NCBI RefSeq assembly: GCF_900114045.1 | Contig: NZ_FORQ01000001.1 | Coordinates: 434,001 to 498,000 of the forward strand | DNA length: 64,000 nucleotides | DNA from: Kaistella treverensis | GTDB lineage: Bacteria; Bacteroidota; Bacteroidia; Flavobacteriales; Weeksellaceae | Direction of reading: 5' to 3' | The notes under the pieces: model-generated | The model's database searches: none | The model's input: the letters and a program-made list of their open reading frames with translations, nothing else | What the model was told of the DNA's origin: nothing | Shown here: positions 3,891 through 34,683 of the stretch, piece by piece | Layout: every line of letters begins with the position of its first letter | Numbering within the stretch: the first letter of the stretch is position 1 | Translations under genes and position numbers: made by a program

Positions 3891-4976
3891 ATGGAAAATT
3901 TCGTAGTTTCTGCCCGCAAATACCGTCCGCAAGAGTTTGATACTGTTGTGGGGCAGGTGCATATAACAGAAACTTTAGAACATGCCATCGCTTCGAACCA
4001 TTTGGCGCAGGCCTTACTTTTCTGCGGTCCACGCGGCGTTGGAAAAACCACCTGCGCACGAATTTTAGCAAGAAAAATAAATGAGCGCGACGGTTCAACT
4101 TCCGAAGATGGTTTTGCTTACAATATTTTTGAATTAGACGCGGCTTCCAACAACTCGGTAGACAATATCCGCGAACTTACCGATCAGGTGCGTTTCGGTC
4201 CGCAGGTCGGGAAATATAAAATTTATATTATCGATGAGGTTCACATGCTTTCATCAGCCGCTTTCAATGCGTTTTTGAAAACATTAGAAGAACCGCCGGC
4301 GCACGCCATTTTCATTTTAGCGACCACCGAAAAACATAAAATTATTCCAACGATTTTATCGCGGTGTCAGATTTTTGATTTCAAAAGAATTACCATTGAA
4401 GACATTCAGCTACATTTAAAAAAAATAGCCGAAGAAGAGGGAATAAATTACGAAGACGACGCGCTGTATCTGATTGCGCAAAAAGCTGACGGTGCACTGC
4501 GCGACGCACTTTCAATTTTCGACCGGCTTTCAACTTTTTCCCAGAAAAATATCACTTTAGCAAAAGCTGCAGAGGTTTTAAATGTTCTTGATTACGAACA
4601 ATATTTAAATATTGTAGATCTTGCGCACGAAAACAAAATTGCGGAATCTTTGCTGGCGTTAAATGAAATCATTAAAAAAGGTTTTAATCCGCATATTTTT
4701 ATTGCCGGTCTCGGAAATCATTTCCGCGATTTAATGATGTCGCAACAGCCGCAAACTGTGGATTTAATTGAAGTTGGCGAAAAAACCAAACAGAGGTTCA
4801 CCGAGCAAAGCAGAAAATGGTCTTCGCAACAGTTGGTGGATGCGGTGGAAATCTGTAATCACGCCGACATCAATTATAAAAACTCAAAAAACCCTCGTTT
4901 AACAGTAGAAATTGCTTTAATGCAATTATGCTCACTCACTGCAAATCAGCAAGATTCCAAAAAAAAAAATTCCTGA
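3891..4976 (+). CDS. dnaX: DNA polymerase III gamma/tau subunit, zero-frame part
   Basis: AAA+ clamp-loader ATPase of the replicative polymerase. Start MENFVVSARKYRPQEF is typical. Walker A GPRGVGKTT lies at about 46-54 and Walker B IIDEVH at about 113-118; LDAASNNSVDNIR and FLKTLEEPPAH are clamp-loader signatures. The four-cysteine zinc module that usually follows Walker A is absent. The frame stops after 361 residues, two codons past a run of 11 A (4959-4969); the remaining C-terminal part of tau continues in the -1 frame to 5569. So the zero frame encodes a gamma-like short form and slippage would give tau of about 559 residues. An assembly error in the homopolymer is the main alternative. 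Confidence 0.9.
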   Translation: MENFVVSARKYRPQEFDTVVGQVHITETLEHAIASNHLAQALLFCGPRGVGKTTCARILARKINERDGSTSEDGFAYNIFELDAASNNSVDNIRELTDQVRFGPQVGKYKIYIIDEVHMLSSAAFNAFLKTLEEPPAHAIFILATTEKHKIIPTILSRCQIFDFKRITIEDIQLHLKKIAEEEGINYEDDALYLIAQKADGALRDALSIFDRLSTFSQKNITLAKAAEVLNVLDYEQYLNIVDLAHENKIAESLLALNEIIKKGFNPHIFIAGLGNHFRDLMMSQQPQTVDLIEVGEKTKQRFTEQSRKWSSQQLVDAVEICNHADINYKNSKNPRLTVEIALMQLCSLTANQQDSKKKNS

Positions 4977-5569
4977 TTTTAGCACCTTTTCTTAAATATG
5001 TTCAAACAGAAATTGAGCAAGAAATAGCAGAAAATCCGATAAAAAGTGCAACAGAAAGTCAAGTTGAAGTTCCGAAAACTTTCGAAAAAACTTCTGCTCC
5101 AACTGGAATTCAAAAAAAAGCTTCGAAATTCAGCATCAGCGCAGCGCTGGAAAAAACCGACGAACAGCCGGAAATTTTTAACGCCGAAGCGAAAAAAGTT
5201 TTACCTAGCCAACATTTCAGCGAAACAGATCTGCAAACCGAATGGCAAAAGTTTCTGGAAGAATTACAACAGCGCGACATCATTATTTTTAATGCCATCA
5301 ACTCCTTTTCATTTCATAAAAAAAGTGAAGATATTGTGCTGATTACGTATCCTTCAGAATCTGCAAAAAGCGAGTTTGAAAAAATCCGTACGGAGTTTTT
5401 TAACCATTTTATGCGGAAAGTAAACCACTTCAATATTTCAATTGAGTATCAGTTGGACGTTACGATGAAAAAAGAAATCATCACGAAACGAAAGATTTTC
5501 AATAAATTTGCGGAGATTAACCCGGTTTTAAAAGATTTAGACGATCTTTTTAAACTGGATTTTAATTAA
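4928..5569 (+). CDS. dnaX: DNA polymerase III tau C-terminal part, -1 frame
   Basis: Continuation of DnaX in the -1 frame relative to the upstream AAA+ part. Translation is expected to enter through the A11 run at 4959-4969, so the bases from 4928 to about 4959 are probably not used as an independent start. After the run it reads KFLILAPFLKYVQTEI, then a charged low-complexity linker and a folded C-terminal segment (about WQKFLEELQQRDIIIFNAIN to the end DDLFKLDFN) of the kind that ends tau in Flavobacteriia, where tau contacts the polymerase. It has no promoter or start of its own and the next gene, DAHP synthase, begins 18 bases after its stop. Without slippage this domain would be lost. Confidence 0.75.
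   Translation: MLTHCKSARFQKKKFLILAPFLKYVQTEIEQEIAENPIKSATESQVEVPKTFEKTSAPTGIQKKASKFSISAALEKTDEQPEIFNAEAKKVLPSQHFSETDLQTEWQKFLEELQQRDIIIFNAINSFSFHKKSEDIVLITYPSESAKSEFEKIRTEFFNHFMRKVNHFNISIEYQLDVTMKKEIITKRKIFNKFAEINPVLKDLDDLFKLDFN
4959..4969 (+). other. A11 slippery run in dnaX
   Basis: Eleven consecutive A between TCC and TTCCTGA. Reading straight through gives Ser-Lys-Lys-Lys-Asn-Ser-stop. Slipping back one base, or adding one A to the mRNA, opens the frame that runs to 5569. Thermus dnaX uses transcriptional slippage on A9 and E. coli dnaX uses -1 ribosomal frameshifting; either could apply here. I see no convincing stem-loop directly downstream, which favours transcriptional slippage if the signal is real. 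Confidence 0.65.
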
Positions 5570-31136: not shown

Positions 31137-31286
31137 AGGAATTTTAGCCGGTCCAGCTTCGATCCAAGCTTTAAAAAATACCGGCTTAAAACGATAAATT
31201 TTTCCGTTTTGAAAAATCGTAAGCGTATGAGCGGCAAGCAGAAAGGCATAATTATTTCATTACGGCAAATCATTAAAAATGTAATT

Positions 31287-32075
31287 ATGAAGGCGATTTG
31301 GAACGGCGCAATCGGTTTTGGTCTCGTAAACATTCCCGTAAAAATGTATTCTGCAGTGCAGGATTCCAACTTAGATTTGGATATGTTGGATAAAAGCGAC
31401 CACGCAAATATCAAATTTAAAAGGGTGAACGAGAAATCCGGCAAGGAAGTTAAGTATGCGGATATTGTGAAAGGCTATATGATCGACGGCAATTATGTGA
31501 TTCTGGAACCTGAAGATTACGCCGCCGTCGCACCAGAAAAAACCAAGGTTTTTTCCATTGAACAGTTTGTTCAGGAAGAGGAAATCGATTCGGTTTATTT
31601 TGAAGTTCCCTATTTTTTGGAGCCCCAAAAAAATGCTGAAAACGCCTATAACTTATTGCTCAAGGCTTTAAGCGAAACTAAAAAAGCCGGTATCGGAACC
31701 TTTATTATGCGGGATAAAGAAATTTTCGGCATGATTCGCCCGTATAATGACGAAATTTTAATTGTAAACCGTTTGCGTTTCGCGCAGGAAATACGTGATT
31801 ACAAAGATTTAAAATTGCCCGCGGCAAAAGATCCAAAAGCCGGTGAGCTGAAAATGGCGATTTCGTTAATCGACCAAACATCAGAAAAATTCAATCCCGC
31901 CGCATACAAAGATACCTACAACGATGATTTGCTGAAAATTATCGAAAGCAAGGCCAAGGGTAAAAAAGTGAAAAAAACCACCGAAGAGCCGGAAGAAACC
32001 GGAAAAGTGGTGGATTTGATGGCGCAGCTTAAAGCAAGTTTGGAAAGTTCTAAAAAAACCAAAAAAGTCTCCTGA
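31287..32075 (+). CDS. ku: Ku protein for non-homologous end joining
   Basis: Bacterial Ku homodimer subunit that rings broken DNA ends and recruits LigD. 262 residues from the ATG at 31287: MKAIWNGAIGFGLVNIPVKMY is the standard Ku start; a longer frame from 31209 is rejected. Core blocks: VKYADIVKGYMIDGNYVILEPEDY, IEQFVQEEEIDSVYFEVPYFL, and KAGIGTFIMRDKE. The C-terminal tail is lysine-rich (KGKKVKKTTEEPEE), typical of tails that help DNA threading and LigD contact. ligD starts one base after its stop, forming a two-gene NHEJ operon that matters in non-dividing or desiccated cells. Confidence 0.95.
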   Translation: MKAIWNGAIGFGLVNIPVKMYSAVQDSNLDLDMLDKSDHANIKFKRVNEKSGKEVKYADIVKGYMIDGNYVILEPEDYAAVAPEKTKVFSIEQFVQEEEIDSVYFEVPYFLEPQKNAENAYNLLLKALSETKKAGIGTFIMRDKEIFGMIRPYNDEILIVNRLRFAQEIRDYKDLKLPAAKDPKAGELKMAISLIDQTSEKFNPAAYKDTYNDDLLKIIESKAKGKKVKKTTEEPEETGKVVDLMAQLKASLESSKKTKKVS

Positions 32076-32076
32076 T

Positions 32077-34683
32077 ATGCCACTGGAAGAATACAATAAA
32101 AAACGGAATTTCGAGGAAACATCGGAACCGGAAGGGAAAACGAAAAAAAGTGAAGGCGAACTTATTTTTGTGATTCAGCGGCATTCTGCAACGCGCTTGC
32201 ATTACGATTTCAGGCTTGAAATGGACGGCGTGCTGAAAAGTTGGGCGGTGCCGAAAGGTCCTTCATTAAACCCAAAAGATAAGCGCCTGGCGATGATGAC
32301 CGAAGATCACCCCTACTCTTACCGCGATTTTGAAGGCAGTATTCCCGAAGGAAATTATGGTGGCGGCGAGGTTGAAGTTTGGGATTCCGGCACTTATGAA
32401 CCTTTAGAAAAAGCGGAAGGAAAAGCTGATGATTTGGTTATGCGCAGCGAGCTGCATAAAGGATCGTTGAAATTTATTCTTCATGGTAAAAAATTAAAAG
32501 GTGAATTTGCCCTTGTAAAAATTAAAAATCCAAAAGATGATAATGCGTGGTTGCTGATTAAGCATAAAGATAAATTTGCTTTAGATGAGTATGATTCTGA
32601 AGATCACGTTCCGAAAAAATCCAAAGTTACTGAGCGGGAGGAAAACCGGCCTTCGAAAAAAAAAACGGTAAAAACCACTGAAAATTTCACAAAATCTTTC
32701 CAAAATTACACATCTGCACTTACCGGTGAAAAAAAGCTGAAAGATTTCATGAAACCAATGTTGGCAAAGGTTGGGGAAGAAGCTTTCGACAGCAAAGACT
32801 GGGTTTTCGAAATAAAATGGGACGGTTATCGTGCTATTGCGGACTTGCGAAAAAACACCAAATTTTTATATTCCAGAAACGGACTTTCATTTTCTGAGAA
32901 ATTTTACAAAATCAGCGAAGCTTTAGAAGATCAAAAATTTCCAATGGTTTTGGATGGAGAGATTGTGGCTTTTAATTCCAAAGGTCAGCCGGATTTTCAA
33001 GCTTTACAGCAAATTGGTGATCACCCTAATATGGCGATGACTTACCAGGTTTTCGATTTACTTTGGCTGAACGGAAAATCTACCGAAAATTTAACCTTAA
33101 TTGAACGAAAAGAATTGCTGAAAGACGCATTAGTTGAAAATGATGTCGTAAAATATTGTGAGCACATTCCCGAAAAGGGTAAAAACTTCTTCAATCAAAT
33201 TGAAAAGATGAATCTGGAAGGAATGATTGCTAAAAAAATTACGAGTATATATACCGAAGGCGCGCGCAGTGCAGACTGGCTTAAAATTAAATTTCAGCAA
33301 ACCGAAGATGTGCTGATTTGTGGTTTTACCGAACCGAAAGGTTCCCGCAAACAGTTTGGCGCTATAATTCTGGGCACTTATGTAAATGGTGAACTGCAAT
33401 ATTGCGGCCATGCGGGCACGGGTTTCAGCAATAAAAAACTTGAAGAACTGTACGAACTATTTGAACCTTTAATTACATCTGAAGCACCTTTCAAAGATGT
33501 TCCGAAAACCAACACCAAAGCAACCTGGGTAAAACCTGAAATTGTCTGCGAAATAAAATTTACCGAAAAAACCGGCGACGGTATTTTCCGTCATCCCGTT
33601 TTCCTTGGAATCCGAACAGACAAAGAAAAGGTAGACATAAAAAAAACGTCTTTAGGTGAAGATCTAAAACCGGAAAAAAGTGCCAAAAAAGCACCGAAAA
33701 AAGAGGAAGAAGTAGAAAATGCAGAAACCAAAGTTTCATCCTCAAAAACAAAAACTATGAAAAAAACACGCGAGAATGAACAGGAGAAAAAAATAGGGAA
33801 ACAAACGGTAAAATTAACAAACCAAAACAAAGTTTACTTTCCGGAAAGCGGTATTACCAAAGGAGATTTGGTTGAATACTACCAATCTGTTGCAAAATAT
33901 ATTTTACCACATTTAAAAAACCGCCCACAATCGTTAAACCGCTTTCCGAACGGTATCGGAGGTTTAAGTTTTTACCACAAGGATGCTGGTGACAGCGCGC
34001 CGGACTGGATTGAAAAAGCGACTATTTTTTCGGAATCAAACGAAAAAGACATTCAGTATTTGGTCTGCAATACCGCGGCGGATATGGCGTATTTGAATAA
34101 TCTCGGCTGTATTGACTTAAATCCATGGAATTCCAAAATTGATAATTTGGAATTTCCAGACTGGCTGGCGCTGGATTTGGACCCTTCGGAAGGCAATACT
34201 TTTGAAGATGTTATAGAAGTTGCGCTGGCAACAAAAGAAGTTCTGGATCAGGTAAAAATTGAAGGTTACTGCAAAACTTCCGGAAGTTCCGGCATCCATA
34301 TTTTTATTCCGATGGGCGGAAAATATGACTATGAGCAGGTAAAAAACTTTGCGCACCTGCTGATGCAGAAAGTACAGCAACTGGTTCCGGAAATTACCAC
34401 ACTTGAAAGAAGTTTAAAGAAAAGAGAAAAAAACGAAATCTATCTGGATTATTTGCAAAATCGTGGCGGCCAGACTTTAGCAAGTGTGTACAGCGTTCGG
34501 CCAAAACCTGGTGCGCCGGTTTCCATGCCGCTAAACTGGGAGGAAGTAAAATCAGGTTTAAAACCGACAGATTTCAATATTTATAATGCTTTGGATCGAA
34601 TTAAGAAAAACGGAGATTTATTTAAACCGGCGCTCGGAAAAGGAATTGATATGCTGAACGCCTTGAAAAATCTGGAAAAGTAG
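32077..34683 (+). CDS. ligD: ATP-dependent DNA ligase D
   Basis: 868-residue end-joining enzyme with domains in the order phosphoesterase, ligase, polymerase. PE domain about 10-160 (FVIQRHSATRLHYDFRLEMD, IPEGNYGGGEVEVWDSG). Ligase about 225-530 with nucleophile Lys247 in FEIKWDGYRA and DGEIVAFNSKGQPDF. A long Lys/Glu linker (about 530-575) then the primase-like polymerase about 580-868, with catalytic LDLDPSEG (Asp700, Asp702) and KTSGSSGIHIFIPM. All three active sites look intact. Operon with Ku. Its stop abuts, without gap, the stop of the convergent methyltransferase gene. Confidence 0.95.
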   Translation: MPLEEYNKKRNFEETSEPEGKTKKSEGELIFVIQRHSATRLHYDFRLEMDGVLKSWAVPKGPSLNPKDKRLAMMTEDHPYSYRDFEGSIPEGNYGGGEVEVWDSGTYEPLEKAEGKADDLVMRSELHKGSLKFILHGKKLKGEFALVKIKNPKDDNAWLLIKHKDKFALDEYDSEDHVPKKSKVTEREENRPSKKKTVKTTENFTKSFQNYTSALTGEKKLKDFMKPMLAKVGEEAFDSKDWVFEIKWDGYRAIADLRKNTKFLYSRNGLSFSEKFYKISEALEDQKFPMVLDGEIVAFNSKGQPDFQALQQIGDHPNMAMTYQVFDLLWLNGKSTENLTLIERKELLKDALVENDVVKYCEHIPEKGKNFFNQIEKMNLEGMIAKKITSIYTEGARSADWLKIKFQQTEDVLICGFTEPKGSRKQFGAIILGTYVNGELQYCGHAGTGFSNKKLEELYELFEPLITSEAPFKDVPKTNTKATWVKPEIVCEIKFTEKTGDGIFRHPVFLGIRTDKEKVDIKKTSLGEDLKPEKSAKKAPKKEEEVENAETKVSSSKTKTMKKTRENEQEKKIGKQTVKLTNQNKVYFPESGITKGDLVEYYQSVAKYILPHLKNRPQSLNRFPNGIGGLSFYHKDAGDSAPDWIEKATIFSESNEKDIQYLVCNTAADMAYLNNLGCIDLNPWNSKIDNLEFPDWLALDLDPSEGNTFEDVIEVALATKEVLDQVKIEGYCKTSGSSGIHIFIPMGGKYDYEQVKNFAHLLMQKVQQLVPEITTLERSLKKREKNEIYLDYLQNRGGQTLASVYSVRPKPGAPVSMPLNWEEVKSGLKPTDFNIYNALDRIKKNGDLFKPALGKGIDMLNALKNLEK

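Follow-up and report, generated by a model that had tools for sequence, protein, structure and literature searches.

A putative slippage run joining the gamma and tau reading frames of dnaX in Kaistella treverensis and across its phylum

The dnaX locus and its described counterparts

E. coli makes gamma and tau from one dnaX gene, as the gene described here would, by a −1 programmed ribosomal frameshift at A_AAA_AAG, an A6G motif accompanied by AGGGAG upstream and a strong hairpin. The dnaX of Thermus thermophilus likewise gives both proteins from one gene, by transcriptional slippage, and, according to passages of two papers (PMC1088944, PMC5009743), shares with our locus a poly-A run (A9) and stops in both wrong frames, although its templated product is tau, whereas here the templated product is gamma. 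A further type, whose tau depends on recoding, has been known since 2013: passages of Antonov et al. (PMC3711429) describe a GeneTack cluster of 17 such dnaX genes from 12 genera, nine of the 17 with ten As, and propose transcriptional realignment. In these genes, as in ours, gamma lies in the zero frame and tau is reached by a −1 shift, counted at the DNA level, on a run of As, and the gene described here is a further case of this type. The same main-text passages name Chloroherpeton and Chlorobium for shorter runs and leave the A10 genera unnamed, the main text has no occurrence of ‘flavobacteri’, and the repeated phase swaps and +1 genes reported below are absent from those passages. Among the titles and abstract openings listed from the open-licence literature, we found no survey of dnaX phase in this phylum.

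The locus lies in a 64,000-nucleotide stretch of the Kaistella treverensis genome, which was analysed whole and is called the window here. A/T runs at least 10 long stand at 18 separate places in the genome (2.38 Mb, 99.96% complete), or 24 hits when overlaps are counted. The features concerned are the following.

3891–4976, plus strand: dnaX zero frame (gamma), 361 residues from the ATG at 3891, matched by TIGR02397, NF011531 and the Pfam AAA+ and domain III families
4959–4969, plus strand: A11 run, proposed slippage site, read from the letters; A9 or longer in 36/36 loci of the genus
4974–4976, plus strand: TGA, zero-frame stop of gamma, read from the letters
4993–4995, plus strand: TAA closing the +1 frame, which runs on for 11 codons counted from the first A of the run, read from the letters
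4970–5569, plus strand: tau-only part in the −1 frame, 199 residues plus stop, assigned by codon-position pattern, aligned relatives and predicted fold
4928–4930, plus strand: ATG in the −1 frame, possible internal start, 31 bases before the A11 and not generally conserved
32656–32665, plus strand: in-frame A10 in the ligD linker, candidate second slippage site, behind the phosphoesterase domain of ligD (32077–34683)

At the junction the zero frame of dnaX reads TCC AAA AAA AAA AAT TCC TGA. The earlier note had placed the end of a 361-residue gamma two codons after the A11, and in the −1 frame an intact C part of about 200 residues ending DDLFKLDFN before the next gene. Every coordinate it gave is exact, and the −1 frame is indeed open from the A11 to 5569, with 199 residues, the C-terminal end as described and the next ORF from 5588. 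The arrangement had also been called the mirror of that in E. coli, the unshifted product being the short one; this is right, though not new in the light of the passages of Antonov et al. (PMC3711429). The window further differs from E. coli dnaX in lacking a strong hairpin and the A_AAA_AAG heptamer, its A11 being followed by T. The tau-only part would be reached if the mRNA carried one extra A, or an equivalent phase change. The A11 starts at dnaX codon 357, five residues past the end of the Pfam match to DNA_pol3_gamma3 (domain III, gamma residues 221–351), which is where gamma and tau would be expected to part.

The N part scores 393.9 bits against TIGR02397 dnaX_nterm (cut-off 250) and has an AAA+ Pfam match as well, indicating that the DnaX AAA+/domain III region is present. 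The gamma/tau model NF011531 (614 positions) is matched by both parts, the N part on positions 1–372 and the C part on 438–613, each alone falling below the cut-off of 685; the C-part match (E 1.9e-11) indicates that the tau-specific region is present, and a Pfam search of this region gave no match. Over 199 codons the C part differs from its two nearest relatives at codon positions 1/2/3 by 5/5/18 and 33/29/87, a third-position excess which argues that it is selected as a protein in the −1 frame, and it aligns with 45 relatives at 12–95% identity. Structure prediction gives a compact domain at high confidence in the C part, with residues 82–167 showing resemblances to KH-like folds that are headed by DnaA domain I (Foldseek E 4.2e-3; Z 7.8 and rmsd 2.7 over 79 aligned residues). 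Tau domain V is not among the matches listed in this fold search, and comparison of the C part with solved structures by sequence returned a single weak match, DnaA (E 0.26).

We consider it likely, at a probability of roughly 0.83, that this dnaX is read by way of a programmed slippage site, at which RNA polymerase would lose register on the A11 and release mRNAs of mixed A number. Transcripts with the templated number of As would give gamma, with its stop two codons behind the run, and those with one extra A, or another change to the same phase, would give tau, a protein of 559 residues by codon count. We infer slippage in transcription, the production of both proteins and their ratio from sequence.

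The junction in the genus and the phylum

dnaX was found in all 60 genomes searched. The nearest titled relatives by gamma identity, among the best 80 of at least 593 matches, are Chryseobacterium lathyri (86%) and Halpernia humi (83%). Within the genus (36 genomes, our own included) the zero frame measures 362–377 codons from stop to stop in 35 and 562 in one, and the junction runs are A9 in two, A10 in 17, A11 in 16 and A12 in one. Tau lies in the −1 frame in 34, all of them with A10–A12, in frame 0 in one (L183) and in +1 in one (L188); the nearest relative likewise has A11. L183 and L188, from the one-contig genomes G031 and G032, both have A9, and a miscounted homopolymer is possible there. 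Homopolymers are a common site of error, and some of the 32 single-tip phase changes described below may have arisen in this way. An assembly or sequencing error as the source of the frame break in the window is nevertheless the least probable reading we considered, given the identical A11 of the nearest relative and the presence of one-contig assemblies among the 34. The comparison with relatives proposed in the earlier note thus finds 34 of 36 members of the genus split at the same A-run, the other two keeping A9 in another phase, and on this comparison the frame break is not a sequencing error, because tau occupies the same −1 frame in those 34.

For the phylum we gathered 348 dnaX loci, of which 343 are distinct after five identical ones were dropped. 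The sources were a set of 30 loci (own genome included), the best 80 titled of at least 593 matches, and genome draws in which 147/149 and 146/148 genomes were matched; part of the matched genomes were taken in, and the sample is uneven, with the window’s genus over-represented. The run was called as the longest stretch of A in the roughly 110 codons that follow residue 330, only runs of A being sought, after which the three frames were measured and the one open for at least 100 codons was taken as the tau frame, with homology of the C part checked for 45 relatives. A run of A8 or longer stands near the gamma/tau junction in 295/343 distinct loci and one of A9 or longer in 294/343. Counting titled loci with the window’s class, A9 or longer is found in 33/49 loci from other classes of the phylum and 261/294 of the remainder, and in 225/258 of the same-class loci outside the genus. 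Three of the 295 were left out, their tau frame being cut by the contig end. The 292 resolved loci have A8 in one, A9 in 49, A10 in 202, A11 in 37 and A12 in three, and tau lies in frame 0 in 165 (the Thermus sort of arrangement), in −1 in 118 and in +1 in nine. One suspected frame break becomes in this way a clade-wide rule.

Counting against programmed slippage, 48/343 loci are without the run. In its favour, an out-of-frame tau part was seen in none of these 48. Nor did a run of T9 or longer stand at the junction of a tau-bearing gene among them; the zero frame extends for 500 codons or more in 42 of them (two running to the contig end). Three run-less loci (L097, L108, L300) break off where their contig ends or close to it, the frame of L108 (JADILW010000088.1) closing in what is presumably sequencing-adaptor sequence. 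In L109 (CAMZFW010000113.1), which has no A-run, an in-frame TAG stands at the gamma/tau boundary near residue 367 and tau continues in the same frame, representing either read-through or an error. L081 (JAFSPM010000015.1) has G7 where the A-run would be, near residue 370, and its wrong frames close after 3 and 8 codons. In two very small genomes dnaX is gamma-sized, with 341 residues in L207 (contig of 345 kb) and 353 in L349 (contig of 490 kb), and no frame behind it holds a tau part. The gammas of L063 and L104, two MAG contigs that bear the titles Chryseobacterium gleum and Chitinophaga pinensis, share just 59% and 56% identity with that of the window, as against 86% for Chryseobacterium lathyri, so their titles look wrong.

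Elsewhere in these dnaX genes, the N parts (313 kb) hold a single run of A9 or longer and the C parts (181 kb) nine, making 10 in 494 kb. Behind the junction run the longer wrong frame has a median length of 4 codons (mean 5.8) over the 292 loci, being closed within 10 codons in 93% and reaching 86 at the longest, against means at random control places of 23.5 codons in C parts and 25.9 in N parts; in the window the wrong-frame stops are the TGA at 4974 and the TAA at 4993. Since a slipping polymerase would give every frame, the two wrong ones need to close immediately. As a pattern in the genes, this shows the dnaX A-run to be a kept signal, present far more than chance would allow.

The same split genes bear on whether gamma and the C part might be made as two separate proteins, through internal or re-initiated translation. 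The ATG in the −1 frame of the window, and the GTG which replaces it in the two nearest relatives, would suit such a start. However, an ATG, GTG or TTG precedes the run end in the tau frame in only 15/127 split genes (the window included), the first one lying at a median of 36 codons behind the run across the 127, which argues that production of the C part usually relies on the shift; moreover, in 165/292 loci a single frame holds both gamma and the C part. We therefore regard separate translation as very unlikely.

Phase changes were counted on a FastTree phylogeny of the gamma part with 343 tips, the phase being known for 292. At least 46 changes are needed, 32 on tips and 14 on internal branches, 10 of the latter with support of 87 or more, whereas shuffled phase labels on the same tree need 99.6 on average, suggesting that phase is inherited yet labile. 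Since 34 changes are left among the 202 A10 loci alone, many would stem from indels outside the run; the run itself was gained or lost at least 23 times. The window shows one of three phases between which a single conserved run can switch, and the role reversals, which number at least 46 and also occur inside one genus, go beyond the known passages on split dnaX. In 127/292 resolved loci dnaX would be called truncated by gene prediction that relies on the frame, though both parts are kept. Repeated swapping suggests that the choice of subunit encoded in the DNA is of little consequence, a view that in turn predicts slippage near a 1:1 product ratio, the gamma:tau ratio described for E. coli and Thermus.

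Homopolymer runs of such length are in general unstable in DNA, and the drift of phase among species would also accord with replication slippage, by which the run would be a phase-variable (contingency) tract, its DNA differing between cells and tau being switched on and off. We consider this very unlikely: one phase is common to 34/36 genomes of the genus, the tau part is under steady protein selection, and early stops in both wrong frames together with a kept run make sense for simultaneous products. Sequencing error, an internal start and phase variation in the DNA are accordingly put last among the readings.

Transcriptional or ribosomal slippage

The kept run, the free phase and the closed wrong frames together fit transcriptional slippage of the Thermus type better than −1 ribosomal frameshifting of the E. 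coli type, and programmed slippage giving gamma and tau, as the earlier note had proposed, remains the best reading, with transcription favoured over translation. According to passages of Antonov et al. (PMC3711429), ribosomal cases keep the direction of the shift, whereas transcriptional ones do not. Here tau is found in frames 0, −1 and +1 among orthologues, within the genus as within the phylum, so by their criterion the unconserved direction points to transcription rather than the ribosome. Errors of transcription in A/T runs are, according to passages of PMC5574713, mostly insertions, 80% of which are of one nucleotide, and rise exponentially with run length, which would account for the excess of genes needing one extra A (118) over those needing one A fewer or two more (9).

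In the ribosomal alternative, tau would arise from a −1 frameshift, or from sliding on consecutive AAA codons, during translation of a uniform mRNA. Slippage by RNA polymerase should work on T runs as well, so the finding that all counted junction runs are of A and none of T speaks against a purely transcriptional mechanism and is in keeping with a ribosomal one; tolerance of lysine in the linker, or the ribosome, may explain the preference. The run also contains A_AAA_AAA, a possible slip heptamer, split genes with tau in −1 (118) greatly exceed in number those with tau in +1 (9), and GGAG or GAGG is slightly commoner 6–20 bases upstream than in controls (24/292 vs 72/1460, p 0.03). A larger Shine-Dalgarno excess scored at first (88/292 vs 59/1168) was rejected, consisting mostly of GGAG/GAGG abutting the run (56/292) and being small at 6–20 bases. 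Passages on ribosome sliding along AAA lysine codons (PMC4363877) report that a run of A11, the window’s own length, robustly shifts E. coli ribosomes in a cell-free system, but that A9 and A10 have little effect, and these are the commonest lengths here (A10 above all, with A9 in 49/292). A −1 shift would, moreover, not serve the nine +1 genes, nor does it sit well with a direction that is unconserved among relatives. We consider the ribosomal alternative disfavoured and rather improbable.

A search for a stimulatory structure bears on the same question, the lack of a strong downstream stem-loop having been taken by the earlier note to favour transcriptional slippage. The observation holds for the window, where folding over 45 nt downstream amounts to −4.0 kcal/mol compared with −19.7 in E. 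coli dnaX, and it counts against a ribosomal shift. As support for transcriptional slippage it is weak, since by z-score the E. coli control barely stands out in this test (−1.53 at 45 nt, against −0.96 for the window, and almost no signal from the control at 55–65 nt). Across the loci, too, no downstream hairpin was found: over all 292 the mean z at 45 nt is −0.27, −0.18 and −0.52 for tau in frames 0, −1 and +1; at 65 nt the means are −0.44 (120 of the 292 loci), −0.15 for a control 240 nt further on and −0.75 for 29 relatives in the genus.

ligD and other A-runs

Beside ku (31209–32075) the window carries ligD, whose product has phosphoesterase (TIGR02777, residues 3–166), ligase (TIGR02779, 227–521) and polymerase (TIGR02778, 578–825) domains. 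Three overlapping draws gave ligD matches in 18/37, 41/120 and 42/246 genomes, part of the matched genomes being taken in. We read 66 loci and kept 62, dropping three duplicates and one that was incomplete; 12/62 are paralogues or distant, with under 50% identity. The gene is split at the linker in 25/62 distinct loci, 24 of them continuing in the −1 frame with A9 or A10 and one in +1 with A8, while the 37 unsplit genes have A9 or longer in 21 and less in 16 (Fisher p 5e-4, kinship ignored). The longer wrong frame has a median of 9 codons behind runs of A9 or more (45 loci) and of 23 behind shorter runs (17 loci). ligD is probably a second slippage gene. Unlike that of dnaX, the ligD run is not kept throughout, so it may represent drift made harmless by slippage instead of a programmed signal. 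If slippage does occur there, the linker A-run would give a free phosphoesterase domain together with full-length LigD.

Beyond dnaX, the phylum could be using slippage on nine or more As as a form of expression indifferent to phase, in which the run is selected and the DNA-encoded product drifts freely, with ligD as a second case; we hold the odds for and against this to be even. If ligD behaves like dnaX, other apparently broken genes with runs of A9 or more in these bacteria merit rereading. A search of open-licence papers found none linking LigD with transcriptional slippage; in the passages concerned, a survey of NHEJ in bacteria (PMC7719229) describes every Bacteroidetes NHEJ it covers as conventional, and the word ‘frameshift’ is absent from its main text.

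Ten other A10/T10 places were read for their frames in our own genome alone. At one site in that genome (L172, G000:C8:464900-466900), an A11 immediately follows what is likely the start codon of a long ORF, the two wrong frames end 5 and 3 codons on, and slippage on this run would lower output.
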